DNA of 37,491 nucleotides from Alphaproteobacteria bacterium. GTDB taxonomy: Bacteria > Pseudomonadota > Alphaproteobacteria > SHVP01. The stretch spans positions 1-37,491 of the forward strand of contig VGES01000036.1 of NCBI GenBank assembly GCA_016869765.1. The letters run 5' to 3'. The notes below the pieces were generated by a model that was given only the letters and a program-made list of their open reading frames with translations, was not told the origin of the DNA and did no database searches. The position numbers and the translations under genes are program-made. Shown one piece after another: positions 2,290-23,868 of the stretch. Position 1 is the first letter of the stretch; each line of letters opens with the position of its first letter.

Positions 2290-2703
2290 TCAGGTCCTGA
2301 TCTCGCCCTCGACCAGCGCCACGGCCTCGATCTCGATCATCGCTTCGCGACTGACGAAGCGGTTGACCTCGACGATCGTGCCGGCCGGGTAAGGCAGCGA
2401 GAGATACCGCTTCTTGATCGCCGACCAGGTGGCGACATGGGTGAGGTCGGTGACGAACGTGGTCGTCTTGACCACCTTGCGCAGGTCCGATCCCGCCGCC
2501 TCGAGGATCCGACGGATGTTGGCGAAGGCCTGATGCACCTGCGCCGCGAAGTCGCCAGGCCCGACGATCTTGCCGTCGCGACCCATCGCGACCTGACCCG
2601 AGAGGAACAACAGGTTGCCGCAGCGGATCGCGGCCGACAGGGCCACCGAATCGCGACGCGAGTCGCCCGGCAACGTGACGCGATAGGCATCGGTATTGGG
2701 CAT
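2290..2703 (-). CDS. RidA family (YjgF/YER057c/UK114) protein
   Basis: A 137-residue RidA-family protein. Family marks are [20 protein letters not shown] near the N-terminus, [20 protein letters not shown] in the middle, and the C-terminal block [25 protein letters not shown]. RidA proteins deaminate reactive enamine/imine intermediates made by PLP enzymes; relatives of this length have varied roles. The usual Arg of true RidA (PxRxxxxV block) is not evident: the block reads PAGTIVEV, so this may belong to the Rid subfamilies without deaminase activity. The start at 2703 has GGAGG five bases upstream. It is divergent from infA. Confidence 0.88.
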
Positions 2704-2756
2704 GGACACCTCCGCCGTGCAGTATCCGGCAAAGCGCGCGTCGACACGAATGGTCG

Positions 2757-2785
2757 TTTACCCGCCACCGGGGCGCGGCTAGGAT
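2757..2785 (+). promoter_or_regulatory. Probable infA promoter
   Basis: TTTACC (2757-2762), a 17-base spacer and TAGGAT (2780-2785), 26 bases before the infA ATG. Each hexamer matches four of six consensus bases. TAGGAT or close variants recur at similar distances before several other genes here. Confidence 0.4.
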
Positions 2786-2811
2786 GCCGCCCGCAACCGC
2801 TAGGGCCTGGG

Positions 2812-3090
2812 ATGGCAAAAGAATCGCTGATCGAGTTCGACGGAACGGTGACCGAAGTGTTGCCCGACTCGCGCTTCCGCGTGAAGCTCGACAACGGCCA
2901 CGAAACGATGGCCTATGCCTCGGGTCGGGTGAAGAAGAACCGCATCCGCATCATCGCCGGCGATCGCGTCCACATCGAGATGACGCCCTACGACCTGACC
3001 AAGGGTCGGATCGTGTTCCGACAGAACGACGAGCGCGGCGGCCCGCCGCCGGCCTCGAGCCGCGGCAACCCCCAGTTTCGTCGGCGTTAA
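2812..3090 (+). CDS. infA: Translation initiation factor IF-1 with C-terminal tail
   Basis: A 92-residue protein whose first 72 or so residues are a complete S1-type OB fold: [40 protein letters not shown], then [22 protein letters not shown]-1 binds the ribosomal A site with IF-2 and IF-3 during initiation. Usual bacterial IF-1 ends shortly after the RIVFR strand. Here about 20 more residues follow, rich in Gly, Pro, Ser and Arg ([19 protein letters not shown]). Tails of this kind are seen in extra or alternative IF-1 copies in some proteobacteria. No purine-rich site lies close before the ATG. It stands alone, divergent from ridA. Confidence 0.93.
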
Positions 3091-4875: not shown

Positions 4876-5871
4876 ATGACCGACATCGTTGCGCCGAACG
4901 GCATACCCGTCAGCATTTGCGTGATCGGGACCGCCAACCTGGAGCGATCACTCGAGTTCTATCGCGATCTGCACGGCATGGACGCGAGCAAGCCCGTCGC
5001 CTGGAGCGGTCTGGCCTTCGAGACCCACTGGCACCTGCCCAAGGGCTCGAGCGCCACGGCGGTGCTGTTGCACGCCGGCCCGGATCCGGTCGGACGCATT
5101 CTGCTGCTCGACTTCCACGCCAAGCAGCGCGAGCTGATTCGCGGTCGCAATGTCGTCGGGCGGAGCTACGGCCTGTTCAACATCAACTTCTACACGGCCG
5201 ACATTTGGGGCGACTACCGCCGTTTCAGGGACAAGGGCTACGAGTTCTGGTCCGAACCCGTGCAACACGAGTTCAACGGCAACGTCGGCGCTCCGATCGA
5301 GGTCGTTTTCGAGGGACCCGATACGGTTCTGGTCAATTGGGTCGAATTGGCCGCCACCGACCCGAAGCAACGGATCGGCCAGATGCGAGCCTTCGTCGAC
5401 CAATACGGGCGAACGCGGACGGGCTTCACGCCCGTCGTCACCACGGCTTCGGTGATGCGCGACATCACGAGGTCGCGAACGTTCTATCAGCGCGTCTTCG
5501 ACATGGGCATCCACATCGATCAGGTGCTCGAATCCGAGGGGTACCGGCGCTTTCAGAAGGTGCCGCCGGGCGGCCGCACCCATGTCACGTTCATGCAGGG
5601 CAACCACATGTTCGGCAAGATCGCGACCTCGCAGCCGCTCAACTACGACATTCCCGACGTGGTGCCGCTCGCCGTCGCGCCCAACATCGGCTACATCGCC
5701 CAGAGTTTCCTCGTGCCCGACATGGCCGAGACCGAGCGGCGGTGCAAGGCGATGGCGGTCGAGGTCTACTCGCCGCGCATGGACATCGAGATTCCGGGCC
5801 TCGGCATGCGTCACGCGATGATCGTTCGCAACCCAGGTTCGGGCTGCCTGCAACAAGTGATCCAGGCCTGA
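4876..5871 (+). CDS. Two-domain VOC (glyoxalase/extradiol dioxygenase-like) protein, metal triad apparently absent
   Basis: A 331-residue protein with two VOC modules. The first opens PVSICVIGTANLERSLEFYR; the second opens PVVTTASVMRDITRSRTFYQ near residue 190. Length and two-module layout resemble type I extradiol dioxygenases (about 300 residues). Those need two His and one Glu in the C-terminal module. Here the positions expected to hold them read Thr (PVVTT), a Gln/Ser region (GYIAQSFLVPD) and Gln (GCLQQV), so the iron triad seems missing. It may bind a ligand without metal or use another ligand set. GGGAGG lies five bases before the ATG. It leads a co-directional set of four genes; the next start is eight bases beyond its stop. 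Confidence 0.75.
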   Translation: MTDIVAPNGIPVSICVIGTANLERSLEFYRDLHGMDASKPVAWSGLAFETHWHLPKGSSATAVLLHAGPDPVGRILLLDFHAKQRELIRGRNVVGRSYGLFNINFYTADIWGDYRRFRDKGYEFWSEPVQHEFNGNVGAPIEVVFEGPDTVLVNWVELAATDPKQRIGQMRAFVDQYGRTRTGFTPVVTTASVMRDITRSRTFYQRVFDMGIHIDQVLESEGYRRFQKVPPGGRTHVTFMQGNHMFGKIATSQPLNYDIPDVVPLAVAPNIGYIAQSFLVPDMAETERRCKAMAVEVYSPRMDIEIPGLGMRHAMIVRNPGSGCLQQVIQA

Positions 5872-5879
5872 GCGACCCG

Positions 5880-6674
5880 ATGATCCGCAAGCAATACATC
5901 GAGGGTCGCTACGGGCAGGTGCACGTCCGCCTCGTCAGGCCGCCGGCCGAGAAAACCCGGCCGCTCGTGTGCTTTCACCAGAGCCCGCTGTCGGGGCGCA
6001 TGTACGAGACGTTCATGACGGCCATCGGCGATGACCGCCGGGTGGTGGCACCCGACACCGTCGGGTTCGGTGAATCCGCGGCGGCCCCCCGATCTCTGAC
6101 CATCGCGGACTACGCGGAGGCCCATGGCGATGCCATCGATGCGCTGATCCAAGGGGAATTCGATGTCCTCGGCACCCATACCGGCGCTCGCATGGCCGTC
6201 GAGGTCGCGTTGCAGCGTCCCGACCAAGTGCGTCACGTCGTGCTCATCGGCTGTGCGGTCTACACCGAGGAGGAGCGGGCCAGGCAACGCGCGTGGACGG
6301 GGGCCTCGGCGCAGCCGACCGAAGGATCGGACGGCTCTCACCTGTTGCGCCTATGGCACAACTGGGCGCAGTTCCGTGGGCCTGGCGTGACCGATGCGAT
6401 GATCGATCGCTATATGGCGGACTCGCTTCGCCGGCGTGATCAGGTATCGGACGTCATGAAGGCGGTGTTCTCCCACGACATGACGCGTGTGGGCCTCGTT
6501 CGCTGCCCTGTCCTGGTGTTCAATGTTCGCGACGACATCTACGAGGCGACCAAGCGCGCCGAGCCCTTGCTCCAGCGCGGGCGCGTGGTCGACATGTCGC
6601 CGTCGGGCTTATGGTTGACGGAGACACGAACAGCCGAGGTCGTGGCGATGATCCGCGACCATCTGAGCCGCTGA
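5880..6674 (+). CDS. Alpha/beta hydrolase with His at the nucleophile position
   Basis: A 264-residue alpha/beta-hydrolase-fold protein. The oxyanion block is HQSP (33-36), the strand-helix turn PDTVGFGES follows (58-66), and the nucleophile elbow reads GTHTG (98-102), placing His100 where Ser, Asp or Cys is expected. The C-terminal strand VLVFNVRDD carries the usual acid, but the region where the catalytic His should be reads PSGLWLTET with no His. By comparison the fused hydrolase at 17580 keeps His there. This copy therefore lacks both nucleophile and catalytic base as normally defined. It shares the IEGRYGQ start block and DGSH motif with both domains of the fused protein. The ATG is eight bases beyond the VOC stop; the next gene starts nine bases after. 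Confidence 0.82.
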   Translation: MIRKQYIEGRYGQVHVRLVRPPAEKTRPLVCFHQSPLSGRMYETFMTAIGDDRRVVAPDTVGFGESAAAPRSLTIADYAEAHGDAIDALIQGEFDVLGTHTGARMAVEVALQRPDQVRHVVLIGCAVYTEEERARQRAWTGASAQPTEGSDGSHLLRLWHNWAQFRGPGVTDAMIDRYMADSLRRRDQVSDVMKAVFSHDMTRVGLVRCPVLVFNVRDDIYEATKRAEPLLQRGRVVDMSPSGLWLTETRTAEVVAMIRDHLSR

Positions 6675-6683
6675 TCGGGAGAG

Positions 6684-7649
6684 ATGGCCTTGGCCGCCAG
6701 CGCCCTTCAGGTCGTGACGTTGGGCGTGAGCGATCTCCGCGAATCGCTGCGCCTGTTTCACGATCTCATGGGGCTGCAAATCGACCGCGAGGCCGCTCTG
6801 CCCGAGGAACTGTTGCGGTTCTGGGGTGTTGCCGCAGGCGTATCGGCCCGCGCGGTCGAGCTCTCATGCGGCGGTTACCCGGTGGGGCGGCTCCGCCTGG
6901 TCGCGTTCGATCCGCCGGCGCGGCAAAGGGCGCGCGATGACCACGGCCCGGGCTGTCCGGATACCCCCTTCGATGTCGGTCCCAAGGCAATCGACTTCTA
7001 TGTTCGACCTCCGATCACCGATGCGGTGAAGGACATCGAAGGGGCCGGCTACCGGTTCCGCTCGGCGCCGATCCGCTATGAGATCGGACCCTACGAGAGC
7101 GAGGAACTTCTGTTCTCCGGGCCCGACAACACGCCGATCCTGATCATGATCGGGCACCGCCACCCCGAGAGTTCGCAACGGCGGCTGCCGCCGGGGGTGC
7201 GCTACAGCGAGGTCCCGACGGTGTCGATCCGTTGCGCCGACATCGCCGCGACGCGCCGCTTCTATGGTGAGGCCCTGGGCCTCCACTGCGGCACCGATGC
7301 CGAGGTGACCGACGAGTTTCGTGATCTCGCCTGTACGCTGACCGGCGTCCCCAAGGGATCGCGGCTGCACTTTCTCACCTACCAGAAGCAAGGTGAGCCG
7401 AGCGGCAAGACGCTGCTCATCCATCTGTTCGAGCGCACCGGACGGCGGCTGACCGATCGCATGCGGCCCGGCAATCTCGGCGTCACGCTTTACACCTATG
7501 AGGCGGACGATCTCGTCGGTTTGCGTGCGCGCCTGATGGCGGCGGGCGGAGCGATCGTGGCGGAGCCTGCTCACTGCGCTGGGCGACAGCGCATGTTGGT
7601 CAAAGGGCCGAACGAAGAACTTTTCGAGTTCCTCGAACAGGCAGGTTGA
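6684..7649 (+). CDS. Two-domain VOC protein, paralogue A
   Basis: A 321-residue two-module VOC protein. Module 1 begins LQVVTLGVSDLRESLRLFHD; module 2 begins VPTVSIRCADIAATRRFYGE near residue 185. It ends with GPNEELFEFLEQ, which keeps the terminal Glu of the VOC metal site, but the His expected at the first strand of module 2 and in the LGVTLYTYEADD strand are absent. It is clearly paralogous to the next gene: both carry GPKAIDFY, IRYEIGP, ESEELLFSGPD and GHRHP. GGGAGAG precedes the ATG. Its stop is two bases before the next start, so the pair is surely co-transcribed. Confidence 0.75.
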   Translation: MALAASALQVVTLGVSDLRESLRLFHDLMGLQIDREAALPEELLRFWGVAAGVSARAVELSCGGYPVGRLRLVAFDPPARQRARDDHGPGCPDTPFDVGPKAIDFYVRPPITDAVKDIEGAGYRFRSAPIRYEIGPYESEELLFSGPDNTPILIMIGHRHPESSQRRLPPGVRYSEVPTVSIRCADIAATRRFYGEALGLHCGTDAEVTDEFRDLACTLTGVPKGSRLHFLTYQKQGEPSGKTLLIHLFERTGRRLTDRMRPGNLGVTLYTYEADDLVGLRARLMAAGGAIVAEPAHCAGRQRMLVKGPNEELFEFLEQAG

Positions 7650-7651
7650 GG

Positions 7652-8602
7652 ATGGCGACATCGGCGATGATCGCAGTCACGGTGGGGGTAAGCGATGTCG
7701 ATTCCTCGCTCCGCCTGTTTCGCGACACCATGGGCCTCTCGGTCGAGCACGATGCCCCGGTTGGGCCCGAACTCGCCGCATTCTGGGGACTCGAGGCGGG
7801 CAATCGTCAACGGTTGGTCGAGTTGTCCTACGGCGGCTATCGCGCCGGTCGGCTACGGCTGTTGTCGGTCGATCGCGCGTCGCCGCTGGTCCGCGACGAC
7901 TATGGAGCGTCGAGTCCGGACTCGGCGAGCGATATCGGCCCCAAGGCGATCGACTTCTACACACGGCCGCCCATCAGCCGTGCCATCGAGGTCATGAAGC
8001 GCGCCGGTTGCGTACAGCGTTCGGAGCCCATTCGCTACGAGATCGGCCCGGTCGAAAGCGAGGAGCTGTTGTTTTCGGGCCCCGACGACGTCCCGATGTT
8101 GATCATGGTAGGACATCGCCACCCGCCGTCCTCCCTGCGCTCGGCGACGCTCCCAGGTCTGTTCAGCGAGATCCCGACGACGTCGGTGATCTGTGCCGAC
8201 TTGACCGAGAGTCGCCGCTTCTATGGCGAAGGGTTGGGACTGGCGACGGGCACCGACGCCGAGGTCAAGGAGCCCTACACGGACTTGGCCTGCCGCCTGA
8301 CCGGGGTGCCATCCGGGACGCGGGTGGCCCTGCTTGCCTACCTCAAGCCGGGCGAGCCCAGTGGCAAGTTGCTGCTCGTGCATTTTTTTGGTGCCTCGCG
8401 GCGGCGACTTTCTGGTCGCATGCGCCCCGGTCACCGCGGGCTGTCGCTGTTCACCTACCGGAGCGACGACCTTCCCGCGCTGGAGCGACGCCTGAATACA
8501 ATCGGGGCGACGTTCGTCGCCCGACGAACACTCGTGAACGGACGCGAACGGATGCTGGTTCGCGGGCCAAACGAAGAGTTGATTGAGATCATCGCGTCCT
8601 AG
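7652..8602 (+). CDS. Two-domain VOC protein, paralogue B
   Basis: A 316-residue protein, tandem duplicate of the preceding gene, with modules beginning IAVTVGVSDVDSSLRLFRDT and IPTTSVICADLTESRRFYGE. It ends GPNEELIEII, again with only the terminal Glu of the usual triad visible. The differences are spread over the length rather than clustered, so the duplication is old and both copies seem under selection. ATG at 7652 was preferred to TTG at 7646 because the latter overlaps the previous stop region; the purine run GAGG lies just before. The function is presumably linked to the neighbouring hydrolase; no substrate can be named. Confidence 0.75.
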   Translation: MATSAMIAVTVGVSDVDSSLRLFRDTMGLSVEHDAPVGPELAAFWGLEAGNRQRLVELSYGGYRAGRLRLLSVDRASPLVRDDYGASSPDSASDIGPKAIDFYTRPPISRAIEVMKRAGCVQRSEPIRYEIGPVESEELLFSGPDDVPMLIMVGHRHPPSSLRSATLPGLFSEIPTTSVICADLTESRRFYGEGLGLATGTDAEVKEPYTDLACRLTGVPSGTRVALLAYLKPGEPSGKLLLVHFFGASRRRLSGRMRPGHRGLSLFTYRSDDLPALERRLNTIGATFVARRTLVNGRERMLVRGPNEELIEIIAS

Positions 8603-10875: not shown

Positions 10876-10904
10876 TTGACTTGAATACCCTTGGCCCGTT
10901 TAAC
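10876..10904 (+). promoter_or_regulatory. Promoter of the amidohydrolase-monooxygenase set
   Basis: TTGACT (10876-10881), a 17-base spacer and TTTAAC (10899-10904). The predicted start point lies at or next to the ATG at 10912, so the transcript may be leaderless. The -10 is embedded in a palindrome listed separately. Confidence 0.6.
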
Positions 10905-10908
10905 GGGC
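10894..10908. promoter_or_regulatory. 15-base palindrome over the -10, candidate operator
   Basis: GCCCGTT, central T, AACGGGC: a perfect seven-base inverted repeat with one central base, covering the whole -10 hexamer of the promoter for 10912-16716. A repressor bound here would block RNA polymerase. No regulator gene is present between 4876 and 19259, so the binding protein is probably encoded elsewhere. Confidence 0.5.
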
Positions 10909-10911
10909 GGT

Positions 10912-11760
10912 ATGAATGCATCCGCTCATCCAATTGACCCAGCGTCCTCGCTCCGGGTGGCCGATGTCTGGGCCAACCTGTGGGACGTGGCGTTCTTCCG
11001 AGCCCAACCGGCGATGCAGGCGCTCTACGACCGTCTCGGTATGCAAGCGCGCGCCGGCGTCACGACAGAGACGCTGACGCGGGAAGCCGAGGCCGGTGGC
11101 GTCGAACGGATCGTCGTCTCGGCGACGGATTTCGCCGGAACCCCGGTCGACAATCGGGCCGTGGCGCGTTTCGTCGCCCAGGATCCGAAGCGCTTCGTCG
11201 GTTGCGCCAGCGTCGATCCTCGGCGCGGCATGGAAGGGGTGCGAGAATTGCGCCGCGCGGTGTCCGAGGATGGCCTGCGTGGCCTCAAGGTGTTGCCGTT
11301 CCTCTACGACCTGCCGCCCAACGACGCGCGCTATTTTCCGCTCTACACGGCGTGCATCGACCTCGAGATTCCGGCGTTGGTGCTGACCGGGCATACCGCG
11401 GTCCAGGCGCGTTCCGAGGTCGGTCGGCCGCTCTATCTCGACGACGTCGCGCTCCACTTTCCCGAGTTGGTGATCATTGCCGGTCATGCCGGCTATCCTT
11501 GGACCGACGAACTGATATCGCTGGCCTGGAAACATCCCAACCTCTACATCGACACCTCGGGCCATCGGCCGAAGTACTTTCCGCCAGCGCTCAAGCACTT
11601 CCTCAACTCCTACGGCCGCGACAAGGTCATGTTCGGGACGGGGTACCCGTTCATGGACTACGCCGGGCCGGTCGGCGATGCCCGCGATATGGAACTGCGC
11701 CCCGAGGCACGACAGCGTTTCCTGTGGGGCAATGCGGCGCGCGTCTGGGGTTGGGCATGA
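10912..11760 (+). CDS. Amidohydrolase-2 family protein with altered metal site
   Basis: A 282-residue TIM-barrel protein of the amidohydrolase-2 (ACMSD/gamma-resorcylate decarboxylase-like) group. Family blocks: ADVWANLWD at the first strand, RFVGCASVDPRRGMEGVREL, GLKVLPFL, LVLTGHTA, ELVIIAGHAGYPW, HPNLYIDTSG and KVMFGTGYPFMDY. In active relatives the first block is DxHxH and the last is FGTDYP. Here the HxH is replaced by Trp-Ala-Asn and the late Asp by Gly, while the two middle His remain. It may be metal-free or non-enzymatic. ATG 10912 was chosen over TTG 10891 because the promoter places transcription start there. The stop overlaps the next ATG by four bases (ATGA). Confidence 0.8.
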   Translation: MNASAHPIDPASSLRVADVWANLWDVAFFRAQPAMQALYDRLGMQARAGVTTETLTREAEAGGVERIVVSATDFAGTPVDNRAVARFVAQDPKRFVGCASVDPRRGMEGVRELRRAVSEDGLRGLKVLPFLYDLPPNDARYFPLYTACIDLEIPALVLTGHTAVQARSEVGRPLYLDDVALHFPELVIIAGHAGYPWTDELISLAWKHPNLYIDTSGHRPKYFPPALKHFLNSYGRDKVMFGTGYPFMDYAGPVGDARDMELRPEARQRFLWGNAARVWGWA

Positions 11761-12953: not shown

Positions 12954-13031
12954 GTCCCGGGGTTGTTCGCTGGATGAGCGGAGCCGGCCATCGCCTTGCC
13001 CACGCCGATGGGCGCATGCGACAAGTCGACC

Positions 13032-14252
13032 ATGGATGCGATCACTGAGAACGACGATCTCCTGGCCCTCGAGGCCGAGCTCGTCCGGCGGGCGCACGCG
13101 CTGGGGCCCAGGTTTCGCGAGCGGGCGGCGGCGACCGAGCAGAACCGTGCTCTTCTGAAAGAGACGATGCAGGACCTGTTCGAGGCGCGGCTGCTGCGCT
13201 ACTTCCAGCCCCGTCGCCACGGTGGGTTCGAACTCGAGTGGGGCGCACAGTACGCGATCGGGCGGGCGGTGGCGCACTATTGTCCCTCGACCGCCTGGAT
13301 CGTCGCCGTCGTGGGAGCGCACGCGTCGTTCTTGTCGCGGATGAAGCCCGAGGTTCAGGACGAGGTCTGGGGGCCGAACCAGGACCAGTTGATCGCGACA
13401 GGATCGGTGACCAAACGGGGCGGGGCGAGGCGCGTTCCCGGAGGACTCCAAGCGTCGGTCCAGGTCGGGTTCTCGAGCGGTTGCGACCATGCCGAATGGG
13501 CCATGTTCGGCGTCAAGGTCGAGGGGGCGCACGACCACTACCAGATCGTCGTGCCCCGCAAGGACTGGCAGATCGCCGATACCTGGCACGTCGCGGGCAT
13601 GCGCGGCACCGGCACGAAGGACCTGGTGCTCGAAGACGTCTTCGTCCCCGAGCACCGCACGTTGTCGGTCCATGACTGGATCAACGCGAACCCACCGGGC
13701 GCCAAAGCGAACCCGGGTTACATCTCGCACGTCGAATTCATGCCGTTCGTCGGCACAAGCCTGCTCGGTCCGATGGTCGGGGCCGCCGAAGGTGCGCTGA
13801 ATGGTTACGTCGAGACGACGCGAAGCCGGCGCGGCGTCATGTTCGGGGAGCAAGTGGCCGACTCGGCCACGGTTCAGTTGCGGCTCGCCGAATCCTCGGC
13901 CGAATTGTCGGCCGCCGATGTCGTGATTCGCGACCAGATCGCCTATCTCCGTCACGTCGGTCATTCGGGCGAGACGGTTCCCGCCGAGAAGCGGCTGTCG
14001 ATGAACCGTGACCGGGCTTTTGCCGGCCGCCTGTGTCTCAGCGCCACCGAACGGTTGACCGCGCAAATGGGCGCGCTCGGTTTGTTCGACAGCAACCCCG
14101 TGCAGCGCCATTTTCGCGACGTAAACGCCATCGCGACCCAGATCGGGATCAACTGGGATCGCAACATGGCGCCTTACGCGAAGTGGCTGCTCGGCCTTCC
14201 CACCGGGGACCCCAAGATCGACGGCGAAAATCGCCAGAAGGCTCCCGAGTGA
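13032..14252 (+). CDS. HsaA-like group D flavin monooxygenase, paralogue 1
   Basis: A 406-residue protein with the acyl-CoA dehydrogenase fold as used by FADH2- or FMNH2-dependent hydroxylases (HsaA, the C2 oxygenase of 4-hydroxyphenylacetate 3-hydroxylase). Family blocks: LRYFQPRRHGGFELEW, CPSTAWIVAVVGAHA, FSSGCDHAEW, WHVAGMRGTGTKDLVLEDVF and NPVQRHFRDVNAIATQIGIN. Such enzymes hydroxylate phenols ortho to the hydroxyl and need a separate flavin reductase; none is in the window. In oxygenases of this group a His is expected near the RDxNxxxxH stretch; here it reads ATQ. The start is uncertain: 13032 fits homologue length but lacks a clear ribosome site; 13008 is the alternative. The stop overlaps the next ATG by one base. 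Confidence 0.83.
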   Translation: MDAITENDDLLALEAELVRRAHALGPRFRERAAATEQNRALLKETMQDLFEARLLRYFQPRRHGGFELEWGAQYAIGRAVAHYCPSTAWIVAVVGAHASFLSRMKPEVQDEVWGPNQDQLIATGSVTKRGGARRVPGGLQASVQVGFSSGCDHAEWAMFGVKVEGAHDHYQIVVPRKDWQIADTWHVAGMRGTGTKDLVLEDVFVPEHRTLSVHDWINANPPGAKANPGYISHVEFMPFVGTSLLGPMVGAAEGALNGYVETTRSRRGVMFGEQVADSATVQLRLAESSAELSAADVVIRDQIAYLRHVGHSGETVPAEKRLSMNRDRAFAGRLCLSATERLTAQMGALGLFDSNPVQRHFRDVNAIATQIGINWDRNMAPYAKWLLGLPTGDPKIDGENRQKAPE

Positions 14253-15460
14253 TGGTGATGACGCCACGACCCGTATGTGCGTCGGGCGAGCGACGAACGC
14301 TCGACGATCTGCTCGGCGTGGTTGCGCAACACGCAGGGGCTTGGCGGGATCGTGCGCTGGCGACCGAGCGGGCACGCCAGCCGCTACCCGAGACGACGGC
14401 GGAGCTGTTTGCGACAGGTTTGATGCGCATGTTCGTCCCGGCCCGCTTCGGGGGCGCGGCGCTCGATTGGGACGCGCCGGTGGCCTTGGGACGGGCGATC
14501 GGACGGGTATGTCCGTCGACGGCGTGGATGGTCGGCGTGGTCGGGGCCCACGCCGCGTGGGTGGGGCGCTACCCTGGCGCGGCGCAGGAGGAGGTCTGGG
14601 GCGATGGGGCCGACCAGTTGCTTTGTGGGGCCATGGTCGCCAAGGGGGGGCGCATTCGCCGCGACGGCGAGGGTTATCGGGTCAGCGGGGCATTCGGGTT
14701 CGCGTCCGGCATTGACCACGCGAAATGGGGTTTCGTGATGGGTTCGGTCGAGGGCTCGACCGAACAGGTCAGTTGTCTGATGCCGCGTACCGACTGGGAC
14801 ATCGCTGATACATGGTTCGTGTCCGGTATGAGTGGGACCGGAACCAAGGATATTGTCGTGCATGATGCCTACGTGCCCCCGCACCGGGCGGTGCGTTCGG
14901 CCGACCTCCTCAAAGCCGACCCACCGGGGGCCACGATCAATCGCGAGCCGATCTACCGTGCCGAATACGGACCCTACGTCGGCAGTTCGCTGCTCGGCCC
15001 GATTCTCGGCGCGGCGGAAGGGGCGATGGACGCCTACCTCGCGATCACCCGAGAACGCAAAGGGATGATGTTCGGGGACCGCGTCGCCGAGTCGGCGAAC
15101 GTCCAAAGCCGCCTCGCCGAATCGACCGGCGATGTGCGGGCCGCTGCACTGATGACGGAGGACCAGATGCGAACACTCGTGGCCTGCTCGCGAGGCGATG
15201 CCAGGCTTTCCGAGGGCGAACGACTGATGTTCGCGCGCGATCGCGCCTATGTCGCTCGGCGGTGCAGCGAGGCCGTCGAGCGCCTCGTCAAGCACATGGG
15301 TGCCTCGGGCCTCTACGACGACAATCCGGTGCAACGGTTCCATCGTGATCTGCAGGCGATGGCCCAGCAGATCGGAGTCAATTGGGACCGCAACATGTTA
15401 CCGTTCGCGCGCTGGCTGATCGGTGGCGCGTCCCAGGATCACAGCAACTGGCGTCGTTAG
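14252..15460 (+). CDS. HsaA-like group D flavin monooxygenase, paralogue 2
   Basis: A 402-residue paralogue of both flanking genes. Shared blocks: MRMFVPARFGGAALDW, CPSTAWMVGVVGAHA, FGFASGIDHAKW, WFVSGMSGTGTKDIVVHDAY, SSLLGPILGAAEGAMD and NPVQRFHRDLQAMAQQIGVN. The start overlaps the previous stop (TGATG); a second Met codon lies two codons downstream. This copy is the most divergent of the three in its N-terminal 60 residues. The role is as for paralogue 1: the oxygenase part of a two-component hydroxylase by family, substrate unknown. Three unequal oxygenases may cover different intermediates or may form a mixed oligomer, since family members are tetramers. Confidence 0.83.
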   Translation: MVMTPRPVCASGERRTLDDLLGVVAQHAGAWRDRALATERARQPLPETTAELFATGLMRMFVPARFGGAALDWDAPVALGRAIGRVCPSTAWMVGVVGAHAAWVGRYPGAAQEEVWGDGADQLLCGAMVAKGGRIRRDGEGYRVSGAFGFASGIDHAKWGFVMGSVEGSTEQVSCLMPRTDWDIADTWFVSGMSGTGTKDIVVHDAYVPPHRAVRSADLLKADPPGATINREPIYRAEYGPYVGSSLLGPILGAAEGAMDAYLAITRERKGMMFGDRVAESANVQSRLAESTGDVRAAALMTEDQMRTLVACSRGDARLSEGERLMFARDRAYVARRCSEAVERLVKHMGASGLYDDNPVQRFHRDLQAMAQQIGVNWDRNMLPFARWLIGGASQDHSNWRR

Positions 15461-15477
15461 GCGCGCGGGAGGAACCT

Positions 15478-16716
15478 ATGGCATTTGCCGAGCGGATCGA
15501 CAGCAGCGTACCGACGGTCGCCGAACTCACGAAACGGGCCGAGGCGATGCTTCCCCGACTGCGGGAGCGTGCGACCAAGACCGAACAGGCACGCACGCTC
15601 CCCGCGGATACGATGCGCGATCTGTTCGACGCGGGCTTTCTGCGCATTCTGCAGCCTAGACGGTATGGCGGTTATGAAATGGGTTGGGCCGTGCACGCCG
15701 ATGTGGCGCGCGTCCTGTCGCGGGCCTGTGCCTCTACGGCCTGGATCGTGTCGGTGGTCGGCGCGCATGCGGCGATCGTCGGGCGGCTCAGCAAAGAGGT
15801 GCAGGACGACGTCTGGGGCAAGAACCAGAACCAATTGATCGCCACGGCATCGGCGCGCACCAAAGGGGGCGCGCGCAAGGTCGACGGCGGCTACCGCGTC
15901 AGCGGGGTCTGGCATTTCGCGAGCGGCATCGATCACTCGGAGTGGTCGATGGTCACAACGCCGGTCGAGGGCAACGACCCCAAGGATCATTCGAAGTTCG
16001 TCCGGCTGATGGCGCCGACACGCGACATCGAAATCGTCGACTCCTGGCACGTCTCGGGCATGCGCGGGACGGGCAGCAAAGACATGAAGTGGGACGACGT
16101 GTTCGTGCCCGACGCCCGTTCGATCAATGCCCATCAGTCGTTCGGCAAATCCCCCCCGGGAGCGGCCGTGAACCCAGGCGGGTACCTGTACGAAGTCGAG
16201 TTCATGCCGTTCTTCGGGTCGAGTTTGCTCGGACCCATTCTCGGAACGGCCGAGGGCGCGTACGCCGACTATCGCGACATCACGCGGGTGCGGACGGGTG
16301 CGTTGTTTGGCGGCTCGGTCGCCGAGCAGACGCCGGTGCAGCAGCGCCTCGCCGAGGTGTCGGCCGAAATCAAGGCCGCGCGTCTCCTCTACGAGACCAA
16401 CAATGCCATGATGCATCGCAAGGGCGAGGCCCGGCAGCGCTTCAGCCAGGAGGAGATCCTCGAGATCAACCGCGATCGCGCGTACGTCGCGCGGCTGTGT
16501 GTAAACGCGGTGACCCGATTGGTCCGCCAGATGGGGGCGATGGGCCTGTTCAACCAGAACCCGGTGCAGCGCCACTATCGCGACATCACCGCGATGGCGA
16601 CGCAGGTGGCGGTCAACTGGGACCGCTGCATGAATCCCTATGGCGCGTTCGAATTGGGAGTCCCCCTCGGTGCCGACTCGCGATTGACGCAGACCGAGCC
16701 GCTGCGCAAACCGTGA
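15478..16716 (+). CDS. HsaA-like group D flavin monooxygenase, paralogue 3
   Basis: A 412-residue third paralogue, preceded by a good ribosome site (GGGAGGA, five bases before ATG 15478). Blocks match the family well: LRILQPRRYGGYEMGW, CASTAWIVSVVGAHA, VWHFASGIDHSEW, WHVSGMRGTGSKDMKWDDVF, FMPFFGSSLLGPILGTAEGA and NPVQRHYRDITAMATQVAVN. It is closer to paralogue 1 than to 2 in the QPRR-GG and GMRGTG regions. It differs by an insertion (GNDPKDHSKF) in the strand pair before the GMRGTGS block. It closes the operon; the convergent SDR stop is one base away, so no terminator fits between. Confidence 0.85.
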   Translation: MAFAERIDSSVPTVAELTKRAEAMLPRLRERATKTEQARTLPADTMRDLFDAGFLRILQPRRYGGYEMGWAVHADVARVLSRACASTAWIVSVVGAHAAIVGRLSKEVQDDVWGKNQNQLIATASARTKGGARKVDGGYRVSGVWHFASGIDHSEWSMVTTPVEGNDPKDHSKFVRLMAPTRDIEIVDSWHVSGMRGTGSKDMKWDDVFVPDARSINAHQSFGKSPPGAAVNPGGYLYEVEFMPFFGSSLLGPILGTAEGAYADYRDITRVRTGALFGGSVAEQTPVQQRLAEVSAEIKAARLLYETNNAMMHRKGEARQRFSQEEILEINRDRAYVARLCVNAVTRLVRQMGAMGLFNQNPVQRHYRDITAMATQVAVNWDRCMNPYGAFELGVPLGADSRLTQTEPLRKP

Positions 16717-16717
16717 T

Positions 16718-17461
16718 CTAACGGCGCTCGTGCGTCATGGCATAGGGCTTGGGCGCGGTCTGCTGGGTGATCAACGGCAGCTCCGAGCCGTCGGGGTCGA
16801 AGAACTTGCCGGAATCGGCCGGGGTCAGGCGCTCGATGATCTTGGCCAGCATGGCGACACTCTGATCGGGCGTCAGCGCCGCCTGGCCCACCGTCTTGTC
16901 GTTCTGGACCCAACCGGGATGGGCGGCGACGGCGATCACGCCCCGGGGAGCGAGGCCGATCGCCAATTGTTTGACCACCTGGTTCAACGCCGACTTCGCG
17001 GCACGGTAGGCGACGACCCCGTACGTCGGTTTCGGGCCGATCCGACTTGAGATGGTGAAGATGATCTTGCGATCGCTCGCTGCGACATGTGCGGCGAAGG
17101 CTTCGGACACCATCATCGGGCCGATCGTGTTGACCTGGAACACTTTGAGCCAATCGCCGTAGTCGGTATTGCCGAAGGGAACACCCATCCGGCCATTGCC
17201 GGCGAACCCGGCATTGTTCACCAGGAGGTCGATCGATTGGCCGGCGAGGTCGCTTGCTAGGCGGCGCACCGCCGTCGCATCGCTGATGTCCATGTCGTGC
17301 ACGGTGATGCGGCCGTGGCTTGCGGCGGCCATGGCCTTGAGCGCATCGGCGTTCCGCGCATCGCGGCAGGTCGCGAAGACCCTCCAGCCGCGATCGGCAT
17401 AGTGCCGTACGAAGGCGAGGCCGAGATTGCGGGCGGAACCGGTGATGAGAGCGATCGGCAT
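16718..17461 (-). CDS. Short-chain dehydrogenase/reductase
   Basis: A 247-residue classical SDR. The cofactor motif is TGSARNLG (7-14), with Asn where the central Gly of TGxxxGxG is usual. NNAG is at 82-85, the catalytic Ser lies in IIFTISSRIG and the Tyr-Lys pair in Y152RAAK156. It resembles the SDR at 1130-1852 along its length (WKVFQVN-type block, LKVFQVNTIGP). It probably oxidises or reduces an alcohol or ketone in the surrounding pathway, by location only. GGGAG lies several bases before ATG 17461. It is divergent from the fused hydrolase across 118 bases. Confidence 0.88.
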   Translation of the reverse strand: MPIALITGSARNLGLAFVRHYADRGWRVFATCRDARNADALKAMAAASHGRITVHDMDISDATAVRRLASDLAGQSIDLLVNNAGFAGNGRMGVPFGNTDYGDWLKVFQVNTIGPMMVSEAFAAHVAASDRKIIFTISSRIGPKPTYGVVAYRAAKSALNQVVKQLAIGLAPRGVIAVAAHPGWVQNDKTVGQAALTPDQSVAMLAKIIERLTPADSGKFFDPDGSELPLITQQTAPKPYAMTHERR

Positions 17462-17579
17462 GGCGGTCTCCCGCATCTCCCCTACGCCCGAAGACTGTGG
17501 CGCGCAAGCGGCCAACAACCCAGACGGCGCTTGGCGGGCGGGGAACGGGCTGGGTAAGGTTGGGAATCGAGGGGGACCC

Positions 17580-19259
17580 ATGGACGAAAGCGCCTACTGG
17601 CGGCGGCCCACCAACGTGCGACGCAGTTACGTCGAGGGGCGGTTCGGCCAGATGCACTATCGCATTGCCGAGCCGATGGGGGCCGGGCGCGTCCCGGTAC
17701 TCTTCATCCACTCGAGTCCCAGCTCGGGTCGGATGTACGAAGCCGTTCTGGCGGACCTCGGTCGCGATCGGATCGCGGTCGCGGGCGACACCCCTGGCTT
17801 CGGGGACTCCGATCCGCCGCTCGCGCCGCCCGAGATTCCCGACTACGCCGCGGCCCACGGTGATCTCGCCGACGCCCTCGGGCTCACACAACTCGACCTC
17901 GTCGGCTACCACACGGGTAGCAAAGTGTGCCTCGAACTCGCGCAGCAGCGTCCCGGGCTGGTCCGTCGCATTGTGCTCGTCTCGGCGCCGGTCTACTCGG
18001 CCGAAGAACTGGCGCGTCAAAAGGTCGACTACGCCGATCCAGGAGTGCCCCGCGATGGCTCCCATCTCGCCAGCCGCTGGGCGTTCATGATGCGTTGGCG
18101 CAAACCCGACACCCCGCTCATCGTCGCTCAACGATCGCTCGCCGACTCGCTCAAGGGCGGGCGGACCGCCCATTGGGGACATCGTGCCGCGTTCAACTAT
18201 CATCACGCGGAGAACCTGCCCAAGGTCGATCACCCGGTCCTGGTGATCAATCCCGACGATGACCTCGTGGCCCCGACCGCCCGTGCTGCCCCGTTGCTGC
18301 GCAATGGTCGCATCATCGAAGCCCCGACGTGGGCGCACGGCTTCATCGATGTCCACACCGGCGATTTCGCCGCCCTCTTGCGAGGGTTTTTCGACGGCCC
18401 GGCGCAGGACCGCACCACGGGCGGCGCGGCTAAGGGGCCGCCCGCGCGACCGGCGCGAATCGCCGTGTCGGGGGCCCGCCGCTTCCTCCCCGGGCGCCAC
18501 GGTCTAGTCCATGTTCGCATTGCTGGCGCAGAAACGCGTGGTCGGCGCCCGTTGATGCTCTTCCACATGAGCCCCAATTCGAGTCGGATCTACGAGGGTT
18601 TTCTCGCCGCGATGGGGCGCGATCGACTGACGGTGGCCGTCGATACGCCGGGGTTCGGCGAATCTGACGCACCGGCAACGATGCCCGCGATCGAGGATTA
18701 CGCCCAGCAAATGGCCGAGGTGGCCGACAGCCTCGGCTTGGCGGCGGTCGACGTCATGGGCTATCACACGGGCTCTCACATCGCGATGGAACTCGCGCTG
18801 CGTCGTCCGACGCTCGTCCGCCACGTCGTCATGGTCTCGGCACCGCTCTACACGGAGGACGAACGGGCGCTGCGCCATGCGCGGAACCGGCCCATGGAGA
18901 TCCGACCCGACGGCTCCCACAACGTCGAGCGCTTCCGCTTCATCTGGCAGTTCTACGGCGAGGATGTGCCCGGCGAGATCGTCGCCAGGAACTTCGCCGA
19001 GAGTCTCCGTGGCGGTCCGATGTCCTGGTGGGGGCATCGCGCGGCGTTCAACTATCCCATGCGGGAGCGGCTGCCGATGGTCCGCCAACCGGTCCTCGTC
19101 CTCAATCCGAACGACGACTTGGCGCAGCAGACCCCGCGCGCCAAAGACCTCCTGCGCCGCGGTCGAATCCACGATTTCCCGCGATATTCACACGGCATGC
19201 TGGACGCCCATACGGACGAGGTGGCGGGGGTCGTACGGGGATTTGTCGATTCCCCGTAG
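17580..19259 (+). CDS. Fusion of two alpha/beta hydrolase domains, both with His at the nucleophile elbow
   Basis: A 559-residue protein made of two homologous alpha/beta-hydrolase domains (about 1-272 and 300-559) joined by an Ala/Gly/Pro-rich linker. Domain A: HSSP (44-47), DTPGFGDSD, elbow GYHTG with His111, acid in NPDDD (225-229), WAHGF with His253. Domain B: HMSP (329-332), DTPGFGESD, elbow GYHTG with His396, NPNDD, YSHGM with His538. Both share DGSH and WGHRAAFNY. Thus each has acid and base but His in place of Ser/Asp/Cys. The single-domain relative lies at 5880. A ribosome site (GAGGGGGA) precedes ATG 17580. Most relatives I know of are single-domain, so the fusion is unusual; an internal pseudo-dimer is likely. 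Confidence 0.85.
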   Translation: MDESAYWRRPTNVRRSYVEGRFGQMHYRIAEPMGAGRVPVLFIHSSPSSGRMYEAVLADLGRDRIAVAGDTPGFGDSDPPLAPPEIPDYAAAHGDLADALGLTQLDLVGYHTGSKVCLELAQQRPGLVRRIVLVSAPVYSAEELARQKVDYADPGVPRDGSHLASRWAFMMRWRKPDTPLIVAQRSLADSLKGGRTAHWGHRAAFNYHHAENLPKVDHPVLVINPDDDLVAPTARAAPLLRNGRIIEAPTWAHGFIDVHTGDFAALLRGFFDGPAQDRTTGGAAKGPPARPARIAVSGARRFLPGRHGLVHVRIAGAETRGRRPLMLFHMSPNSSRIYEGFLAAMGRDRLTVAVDTPGFGESDAPATMPAIEDYAQQMAEVADSLGLAAVDVMGYHTGSHIAMELALRRPTLVRHVVMVSAPLYTEDERALRHARNRPMEIRPDGSHNVERFRFIWQFYGEDVPGEIVARNFAESLRGGPMSWWGHRAAFNYPMRERLPMVRQPVLVLNPNDDLAQQTPRAKDLLRRGRIHDFPRYSHGMLDAHTDEVAGVVRGFVDSP

Positions 19260-21418: not shown

Positions 21419-22747
21419 ATGCCAGTAACGGCGGCCAACGCCAACAACCTCGACGCGCTGTGGATGCCGTTCACCGCGAATCGCGCGTTCAAGCGCAATC
21501 CACGGATGTTCGCCGCGGCAAGCGGCATGTACTACACCACCGTCGATGGCCGTCAGGTCCTGGACGGCACCGCCGGGCTGTGGTGCGTCAACGCCGGCCA
21601 TTGCCGCCCCAAGATCGTCGAGGCCATCCAACGCCAAGCGGCCGCCATGGACTACGCGACGGCGTTCCAGCTCGGCCACCCGGCGGAATTCGAGTTGGCG
21701 GGTCGCCTCACGGCACTCGCGCCGGGCGACCTCGATCACGTGTTCTTCGCCAATTCTGGATCGGAGGCAGTCGACACGGCGCTCAAGATCGCGCTGGCAT
21801 ACCACCGGATTCGCGGCGAAGGCACCCGCACCCGGCTGATCGGTCGCGAGCGCGGCTATCACGGCGTCGGGTTCGGCGGCATGTCGGTGGGTGGCATCGT
21901 CAACAACCGCAAGATGTTCGGCACGATGCTGGCCGGCGTCGATCATCTGCCGACCACCCACAATCTCGAGAAAAACGCCTTCAGCCGGGGCCAGCCGGAG
22001 TGGGGCGTGCACCTTGCCGACGAACTCGAACGTCTGGTGGCGCTGCACGACGCTTCGACGATCGCTGCGGTCATCGTCGAGCCGGTCGCCGGATCCGCCG
22101 GCGTGCTCGTACCGCCGGTCGGTTACCTCGAGCGGCTCCGGGCAATCTGCGATGAGCATCAGATCCTCCTCATCTTCGACGAGGTGATCACTGGGTTCGG
22201 CCGGGTCGGGGCGAGTTTTGCGGCGGAACGCTTCGGCGTTATTCCCGACATGATCACCTGCGCCAAGGGGCTGACCAACGGGTCGGTTCCCATGAGTGCC
22301 GTATTCGTGCGCGACGATGTCTATGACGCCTTCATGGACAAGTCGCCCAAAGGCGCGATCGAGCTGTTCCATGGCTACACGTATTCTGGTCATCCGCTCG
22401 CCAGTGCGGCGGCCCTGGCGACCCTCGACGTGTACAAAGAAGAGGGCCTGTTCGAGCGCGCTCACCTTCTTTCGCCGCGTTGGGAGGATGCGATCCATTC
22501 GCTCAAGGGTGGCGCCAACGTCGTTGACATCCGCAATCTCGGGTTGATGGCCGGAATCGAACTGGCGCCGCGCCAAGGAAAACCAGGCACCCGCGGGGCC
22601 GATGTTTTCGCCAAGTGTTTCGACGACGGCGTCTTGGTGCGGACGACCGGGGACGTCATCGCACTGTCCCCGCCGTTGATCGTCGAAGAGGCGCAGATCG
22701 ATCAGATCATCGAAACGCTGCGCAAGGCGATCCAGAAGACCGCCTAG
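21419..22747 (+). CDS. Beta-alanine (omega-amino acid):pyruvate aminotransferase
   Basis: A 442-residue class III PLP aminotransferase. The N-terminus NNLDALWMPFTANRAFKRNP is characteristic of omega-amino acid:pyruvate transaminases. Further blocks: LDGTAGLWCVNAGHC, VFFANSGSEAVDTALKIA (phosphate-binding), RERGYHGVGFGGMSVGG, LIFDEVITGFGRVG with the PLP-pyridine Asp, and CAKGLTNGSVPM with the Schiff-base Lys. It converts beta-alanine and pyruvate to malonate semialdehyde and L-alanine. GAGGAG lies six bases before the ATG. It is two bases upstream of alanine dehydrogenase, which can turn the product alanine back into pyruvate. Confidence 0.92.
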   Translation: MPVTAANANNLDALWMPFTANRAFKRNPRMFAAASGMYYTTVDGRQVLDGTAGLWCVNAGHCRPKIVEAIQRQAAAMDYATAFQLGHPAEFELAGRLTALAPGDLDHVFFANSGSEAVDTALKIALAYHRIRGEGTRTRLIGRERGYHGVGFGGMSVGGIVNNRKMFGTMLAGVDHLPTTHNLEKNAFSRGQPEWGVHLADELERLVALHDASTIAAVIVEPVAGSAGVLVPPVGYLERLRAICDEHQILLIFDEVITGFGRVGASFAAERFGVIPDMITCAKGLTNGSVPMSAVFVRDDVYDAFMDKSPKGAIELFHGYTYSGHPLASAAALATLDVYKEEGLFERAHLLSPRWEDAIHSLKGGANVVDIRNLGLMAGIELAPRQGKPGTRGADVFAKCFDDGVLVRTTGDVIALSPPLIVEEAQIDQIIETLRKAIQKTA

Positions 22748-22749
22748 CC

Positions 22750-23868
22750 ATGCTCCTCGGCGTTCCGCGCGAGATCAAGAACCACGAATACCGCGTCGGG
22801 ATGACGCCCGGATCGGTTCGCGAGGCCATGCACCACGGCCATCAGGTTGTCGTCGAAGCCGGTGCTGGTCGCGCCATCGGACTCGAGGACGACGCCTATC
22901 GCCAGGCGGGCGCGACGATCGTCGCCGAGGCGGCGGAGGTCTATCGCCGGGCGGACATGGTCGTGAAGGTCAAGGAACCGCAAGCCTCCGAGTTCGGACT
23001 CCTGCGCCGGGACCAGATCCTGTTCACGTATTTGCATCTGGCGCCTGATCGCAAGCAGACCCGCGCCCTGATCGACTCGGGCTGCATCGCCGTGGCCTAC
23101 GAGACGGTCACCGACGCCCGTGGCGGTCTGCCCCTGCTTGCGCCGATGAGCATCGTGGCGGGGCGGATGTCGGTGCAGGTCGGCGCCAGCTGCCTGGAGA
23201 TCGCGCGGGGCGGTCGTGGTCAGTTGCTGGGCGGCGTTCCTGGCGTTCCGCCGGCCAAGGTCGTCGTGTTGGGGGGCGGCACGGTCGGGACGAACGCGTT
23301 GCGCATGGCGCTCGGACTCGAGGCCGACGTCGCCGTGCTCGACAAAAGCCTGTCGCGACTCTACGACCTCGATCTTCAGTTTGGCCCCGCGCTCAAGACC
23401 GTGTTCGCGACGCTCGAAGCGGTCGAAGAACACGTGGTCGCCGCCGATCTCGTGATCTGTGGCGTGTTGGTGCCGGGAGCGGCTGCGCCAAAGCTGATTA
23501 CCGCCGACATGGTGCGGCACATGAAGCGCGGCGCCGTCATCGTCGACGTGTCGATCGACCAGGGCGGCTGCAGCGAAACCAGTCGGCCGACGACGCACGC
23601 CGATCCGACGTATGTCGTGGATGGTGTCGTCCACTATTGCGTCACCAACATGCCGGGGGCGGTGGCGCGCACCTCGACGTTCGCGCTCAACAACGCGACG
23701 CTACCGTTCGTCCTGGCGCTGGCCGGCAAAGGTTGGCAGCGTGCGATGAAGGACGATCCGCATCTCGCCAACGGACTCAATGTCGCGCAAGGACGTCTGG
23801 TGAACGCCGCAGTAGCCGACGCCTTGGGCCTCGACCATCTCCTGCTGTCGCGCGTTCTCCAGGCCTGA
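22750..23868 (+). CDS. ald: Alanine dehydrogenase
   Basis: A 372-residue enzyme, the usual length. N-terminal signature MLLGVPREIKNHEYRVGMTP; substrate-binding Lys in VVKVKEP and His in YLHLAPD; NAD-binding Rossmann motif VVVLGGGTVGTNALRMA; VIVDVSIDQGGCSETSRPT and the closing block VTNMPGAVARTSTFALNNAT. It oxidatively deaminates L-alanine to pyruvate and ammonium with NAD+. Placed two bases after the aminotransferase, it would regenerate the pyruvate acceptor while releasing ammonium, making the pair a beta-alanine (or other omega-amine) degrading unit. No Shine-Dalgarno distinct from the end of the previous gene is seen, so translational coupling is likely. Confidence 0.95.
   Translation: MLLGVPREIKNHEYRVGMTPGSVREAMHHGHQVVVEAGAGRAIGLEDDAYRQAGATIVAEAAEVYRRADMVVKVKEPQASEFGLLRRDQILFTYLHLAPDRKQTRALIDSGCIAVAYETVTDARGGLPLLAPMSIVAGRMSVQVGASCLEIARGGRGQLLGGVPGVPPAKVVVLGGGTVGTNALRMALGLEADVAVLDKSLSRLYDLDLQFGPALKTVFATLEAVEEHVVAADLVICGVLVPGAAAPKLITADMVRHMKRGAVIVDVSIDQGGCSETSRPTTHADPTYVVDGVVHYCVTNMPGAVARTSTFALNNATLPFVLALAGKGWQRAMKDDPHLANGLNVAQGRLVNAAVADALGLDHLLLSRVLQA

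Follow-up and report, generated by a model that had tools for sequence, protein, structure and literature searches.

The window, that is, the whole stretch of 37,491 nucleotides that was analysed (contig VGES01000036.1 of an Alphaproteobacteria bacterium, assembly GCA_016869765.1), contains an ORF for a protein with two consecutive alpha/beta-hydrolase domains, A and B (Table 1). The ORF begins with ATG, with a G-rich stretch immediately 5' of the start codon, and Pfam finds Abhydrolase_1 twice in the 559-aa product (E 2.3e-26). The two halves (residues 1-280 and 281-559) align without gaps and share 125 of 260 residues (48% identity, E 2e-85). An antisense ORF (16638..18500) running over the domain A half was rejected because the plus frame shows the base composition usual for coding DNA of high GC content (0.80 at third positions), matches a Pfam family and has homologues throughout. 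Elsewhere in the window, a 217-aa ORF (2437-3090) has a terminal IF-1 domain; its start lies probably further downstream, or else the ORF carries an unusual extension.

Table 1. Features of the window, numbered from its first nucleotide.
Feature	Position	Strand	Basis
Two-domain alpha/beta-hydrolase ORF, 559 aa + stop	17580..19259	+	Translation, Pfam, AlphaFold2 model
Domain A, residues 1-275	17580..18404	+	Alignment of halves, full-length model, own model
Linker, residues ~276-296	18405..18467	+	Without strand or helix, lowest pLDDT of the model
Domain B, residues ~297-559	18468..19256	+	Alignment of halves, model, structural matches
GYHTG elbow of A (His111 codon 17910-17912)	17904..17918	+	DNA pattern, alignment, model
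GYHTG elbow of B (His396 codon 18765-18767)	18759..18773	+	DNA pattern, alignment, model
His44 after strand 3, oxyanion-loop position	17709..17711	+	Conserved in 183/185 domains
His329, B counterpart of His44	18564-18566	+	Position equivalence
Asp227, acid after strand 7	18258..18260	+	Conserved in 177/186 domains; model position
Asp512, B counterpart of Asp227	19113-19115	+	Position equivalence
His253, canonical base position after strand 8	18336..18338	+	122/173 domains, variable in the family
His538, B counterpart of His253	19191-19193	+	Position equivalence
DGSH (His162) in helical cap	18054..18065; B counterpart 18909-18920	+	158/186 domains; cap helix 161-173
WGHRAAFNY in cap	18174..18200; B counterpart 19029-19055	+	Sequence, model; His201 in 139/186
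Glyoxalase-superfamily (extradiol-type) protein	4876..5871	+	PF00903, 2e-12
Single-domain GTHTG hydrolase, same cluster	5868..6674	+	DNA pattern, alignment, profile match
Two more Glyoxalase-superfamily proteins	6684-7649, 7646-8602	+	Profile matches
Amidohydro_2 protein	10891..11760	+	5.9e-47
Three tandem HsaA-like flavin monooxygenase oxygenase components	12996-14252, 14249-15460, 15475-16716	+	NF045629
Short-chain dehydrogenase	16718..17581	-	PF00106, 4.1e-31

The full-length AlphaFold2 model, computed from an alignment of 36 two-domain proteins (35 of the 36 listed double proteins plus that of the window), has a pLDDT of 94.7 and a pTM of 0.93, and domain A modelled alone reaches 96.5 and 0.94. 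In both domains the predicted structure has the eight-strand core of the alpha/beta-hydrolase fold, with an elbow after strand 5, an acid (Asp227, Asp512) after strand 7 and a base loop carrying a late His (His253, His538) after strand 8. The nucleophile turn, between strand 5 and the next helix, is occupied by His111 in domain A (strand 105-110, helix 112-123; context VGYHTGSK) and by His396 in domain B (strand 390-395, helix 397-408; context MGYHTGSH), in place of the usual Ser, Asp or Cys. Strands 6 and 7 are separated by a cap, and in domain A the DGSH and WGH motifs are located in or at its helices. The preliminary description of this DNA had named the GYHTG elbows, the acid motifs NPDDD (A) and NPNDD (B), the late His at 253 and 538, DGSH and WGHRAAFNY as common to both halves, and had proposed that the elbow His is under selection and looks like a real catalytic or binding residue; all these motifs are present in the translation, and the model bears out the placement of the two His residues at the nucleophile elbow. 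At the DNA level the GxHTG pattern occurs three times in the window, against 0.70 expected (three were reached in 1 of 100 shuffles), and all three sites fall in alpha/beta-hydrolase ORFs, two of them in the gene at 17580-19259 and one at 6171. That the fold and the fusion are as described is practically certain.

The best structural matches are ordinary alpha/beta hydrolases of the non-haem chloroperoxidase/arylesterase group (1a88, 1zoi, 4dgq and 1va4; Z about 30, rmsd 2.1-2.5 over about 250 residues), and 1a88 is also the best sequence match in the PDB (1.5e-19). These enzymes have Thr-Gly after the elbow residue, as does the window protein, but they are single-domain, are only about 20% identical to it and have Ser opposite the elbow His. 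The 3-oxoadipate enol-lactonase PcaD (2xua), a Ser hydrolase, matches the structure with Z 29-30, and its model TIGR02427 is among the best NCBIfam models for the protein (1.5e-30), although the score of 106.5 bits stays below the cut-off of 255.85. The meta-cleavage product hydrolases (HsaD, DxnB2, CarC), which appear in the Foldseek and VIA lists, have the same fold, with the cap between strands 6 and 7, and a pathway context similar to that of the window. Their nucleophile is Ser, as implied by the listed S114A and S105A mutants, whereas the window protein has His at this position and hence lacks the Ser-Asp-His triad of the HsaD type; it scores 57.6 bits with NF045632 (HsaD), for which the cut-off is 400. 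The haloalkane and fluoroacetate dehalogenases and the epoxide hydrolases share the fold and the strand-5 elbow, but with Asp in place of His. In the five alignments shown with solved homologues, the elbow His stands opposite Ser or Asp, and the protein passes no NCBIfam model.

Section 2.7 of a review of the fold (PMC11878206) treats Ser, Asp or Cys at the elbow as usual and not obligatory; the variants listed in that section comprise Ser, Asp, Cys, Ser-less dyads and CGI-58, and His is absent from them. A search of the open-licence literature found no description of a His-elbow alpha/beta hydrolase or of a tandem GxHTG protein.

Conservation of the elbow was followed in a main set of 232 domains in 166 ORFs from the window and its related loci, for which the scan took in 80 of 312 relatives (79 loci). 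In this set the elbow His is present in 63/66 A halves, 46/66 B halves, 83/95 single-domain genes and 5/5 long ORFs having one domain match, figures that are inflated since the elbow His forms part of one of the two peptide patterns used for scanning. After removal of domains with fewer than 225 filled columns or less than 90 bits, 186 domains were used for conservation and for the tree. Here the elbow His is kept in 175/186 domains, with 5 changes on the tree, and the late His in 122/173, with 12 changes; the position of Asp227 is Asp in 177/186 and that of His44 is His in 183/185. Two samples were collected free of the motif. In the window's own genome (score >=150), the elbow His is found in 28/30 domains, the acid Asp in 29/30 and the late His in 14/30. 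In nine other genomes of the family, collected by a whole-protein query and including several genes that overlap the main set, the counts at filled positions are 67/74 for the elbow His, 67/68 for the acid and 37/65 for the late His. A further alignment (A3) was left out of the evidence because its 73 domains had been picked, out of 107 listed, for having the elbow His, which is invariant there by construction.

The idea that the elbow His is a product of decay was rejected because the residue is conserved in single-domain genes and in the motif-free collections. This agrees with the earlier claim that it is under selection and would be found in single-domain relatives, with the qualification that retention is high in A halves and that B halves lose it more often. 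Judged from these comparisons, the elbow His is very probably functional. The same does not extend to the late His, which the preliminary description had placed alongside the elbow as equally constrained: it is retained in the window protein, but a large subgroup with a conserved elbow His has Met, Tyr or another residue instead. On the sequence evidence, then, members of the family can do without the late His, ordinarily the catalytic base, and this residue is given up more readily than the elbow His. The protein is therefore not a Ser-His-Asp triad with a single substitution.

The loss of the late His goes together with the residue that precedes the elbow His. With Tyr at position 110, the late His is kept in 102/106 domains of the main set and in 28/28 of the nine family genomes; with Asp at this position, it is missing in 31/32 and 23/23, respectively, and is replaced mostly by Met in A halves and by Tyr in B halves. 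This association amounts to only two or three phylogenetically independent pairs, for which the sign test is not significant, and the coupling looks like a rewired centre as far as an alignment can suggest it. It also bears on a reading in which the chemistry would be that of an ordinary triad, with the late His as base, another nucleophile or water as attacking group and the elbow His as a structural replacement of Ser only. Both late His residues are indeed present in the window protein, which in overall fold resembles Ser and Asp hydrolases (Z about 30); yet the GDHTG subgroup without the late His still has the elbow His and the acid, and this reading is considered improbable.

The several conserved His residues at the elbow, in the strand-3 loop and in the cap could instead belong to a metal-dependent hydrolase or lyase, in which the elbow His together with His 44, 162, 201 and 253 would bind a metal ion. 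Many members with the elbow His, however, have replaced the His at 162, 201 or 253, and members of the alpha/beta-hydrolase fold often have a conserved His at position 44, which makes a metal site quite improbable. The preferred reading is that the elbow His would act together with the acid, and such a His-Asp catalysis, as suggested by sequences and model, stands at about even chances.

With regard to the fusion, each kind of half groups in the trees with its own kind. The A half of the window stands nearer to the A halves of other proteins than to the B half with which it is fused, which rules out a recent duplication, and the identity between A and B (46-48%) likewise agrees with the expectation that the halves are not near-identical. 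The clades were examined in a tree of 122 domains, obtained from the 186 by manual removal of distant or long-branched rows (28 names or name prefixes) and of near-copies (25 loci). The B clade, consisting of 37 B halves and two unfused or truncated rows (39 rows), has an SH-aLRT of 98. The 39 A halves alone are rejected as a strict clade (p-AU 0.016), but a 42-row clade that also includes three unfused rows, picked after inspection of the tree (L061 up and the single genes of L010 and L046), has a higher likelihood and a p-AU of 0.71. In this sense the A halves are compatible with one clade, and the idea that A and B form separate groups holds. The simplest history to be read from the trees would be one old fusion in the close family, copied many times later.

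Not all copies have kept both elbows. Among 66 two-domain ORFs, His is found in both elbows in 45, in A only in 17, in B only in 1 and in neither in 2, the last ORF being cut short. The A halves most closely related to that of the window include those of L055 and L037, in which the elbow His of B is lost; a frame slip was dismissed as the cause, as the other two forward frames hold no GxHTG. By these sequences, one half is evidently able to lose the elbow motif, and in some paralogues the half without the elbow His may serve as a scaffold. Such losses would also suit a non-catalytic, hydrolase-derived pair that binds a small ligand through the elbow His, as would the dispensable late His and an elbow without Ser, Asp or Cys. 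Against this stand the joint conservation of the acid Asp (177/186), His44 (183/185) and the elbow His (175/186), and the large expansion of the family beside catabolic enzymes, so that a ligand binder is rated as unlikely.

The two domains also occur side by side as separate genes. Eighteen adjacent gene pairs were found in Rhodospirillaceae and other lineages, with domain ends 8-97 bp apart and the elbow His in both genes in 17; at L065, L068 and L078 the genes overlap by ATGA. Because most gene pairs branch separately from both A and B (SH-aLRT 95 in the 186-domain tree and 89 in the clade-test tree), the trees suggest a second, independent pairing. The gammaproteobacterial pair L061, with its first gene among the A halves and its second among the B halves, would be either a fusion that came apart or a remnant of the fusion's ancestor. 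Since pairing is recurrent, the presence of two domains side by side appears to matter, and the pairing is likely functional. Two other families were observed near these genes. A FAD_binding_2 oxidoreductase similar to flavocytochrome c or ketosteroid dehydrogenases (L065:4401-5870) has relatives near 19 GxHTG loci and is divergent, about 110-150 bp away, at 7 of the 9 pair loci that have it. A protein family of about 230 aa without Pfam or NCBIfam match (L064:5178-5864 and relatives near ten GxHTG loci) lies within about 130 bp of the GxHTG hydrolase gene, or overlaps it, at 6 of the 10.

The fusion had been called rare for this fold, and at the level of the phylum this stands, as the two-domain form was found in 1/398 genomes, that of the window itself, a lower bound obtained by scoring three candidates per genome. 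Close to home it does not: the examined stretches of the window's genome hold 22 two-domain ORFs, and the protein occurs in 10/10 genomes of the window's family, which have 2-25 matches each at E <= 1e-60, single-domain copies included. The fused form is also present in a few Gammaproteobacteria (L042, L045, L048, L050 and L052). In the window's genome, arrays of four (L009, contig C25) and of three (L011, contig C54) two-domain GxHTG genes were noticed, and a third array (L010, contig C10) combines three two-domain genes with one single-domain GxHTG gene.

The neighbouring HsaA-like monooxygenases and extradiol-type proteins suggest that the window protein may be a ring-cleavage hydrolase. 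The three HsaA-like genes score 278, 253 and 299 bits with NF045629, all below the cut-off of 450. The alpha/beta hydrolases among the scanned ORFs of the window are solely those with His elbows, which are therefore candidates for the hydrolytic step if the cluster is a meta-cleavage route. The single-domain GTHTG gene lies between the extradiol-type genes and has close paralogues in the same genome (L017, L018). The closest orthologues of the two-domain gene share part of this setting, with HsaA-like and cyclase-like genes at L029-L033 (all five loci) and, at L029, L030 and L031, also the aminotransferase and alanine-dehydrogenase genes; in the window a class III aminotransferase is followed directly by an alanine dehydrogenase (21419-23868), an arrangement conserved beside these three loci.

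Whether the family as a whole is linked to HsaA-like or extradiol enzymes was tested at two-domain, pair and single loci and over the genome, with a negative result. HsaA-like genes are nearby at 6/35 other two-domain loci, 0/17 pair loci and 1/27 single loci, and the genome has 13 strong HsaA-like genes, 10 of which are on contigs other than that of the window; the pathway link is therefore limited to the orthologue group of the window and does not apply to the family. Six gammaproteobacterial single-domain genes have an HpcH/HpaI aldolase and a hydratase on the opposite strand at a distance of 0.5-1.3 kb, and the hydratase at L098 scores above the cut-off for HpaH (380 against 351.5 bits). 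The homologue on plasmid pSA1 (L108) is without annotation and hence gives no hint of a pathway. A role as C-C hydrolase is put forward tentatively, as doubtful.

The reading preferred here is that the window protein would be an intramolecular pair of alpha/beta hydrolases, produced by one ancient duplication and fusion, with a His-Asp centre probably acting on a ring-cleavage product; on sequence and model taken together, it has roughly as much in its favour as against it. The central catalytic residue would be the elbow His, probably in direct pair with Asp227 or Asp512 and acting as a general base on water, and less likely as a nucleophile. The oxyanion site would be on the side of the pocket with His44 and Thr112, while the late His would be accessory and could be lost when residue 110 is Asp. 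The reaction may be the C-C or ester hydrolysis of a ring-cleavage product supplied by the monooxygenases and dioxygenases of the adjacent genes, and the two halves would form a fixed pseudo-dimer. In a wider and rather unlikely generalization, these proteins of uncultured aquatic Alphaproteobacteria might constitute a separate catalytic class of the fold, with an elbow-His/Asp centre, a dispensable classical base His and an obligate pair of domains, either fused or ATGA-coupled, that hydrolyses C-C or ester bonds in the catabolism of ring compounds.

The alpha/beta-hydrolase fold is among the largest enzyme folds, and the elbow nucleophile is what it is best known for. A large family that keeps an elbow His and forgoes the usual base His would add a catalytic arrangement to this fold. 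Furthermore, the occurrence of the same domain as single genes, as adjacent pairs and as fusions, some of them with a degenerate half, is a natural test of why enzymes fuse.
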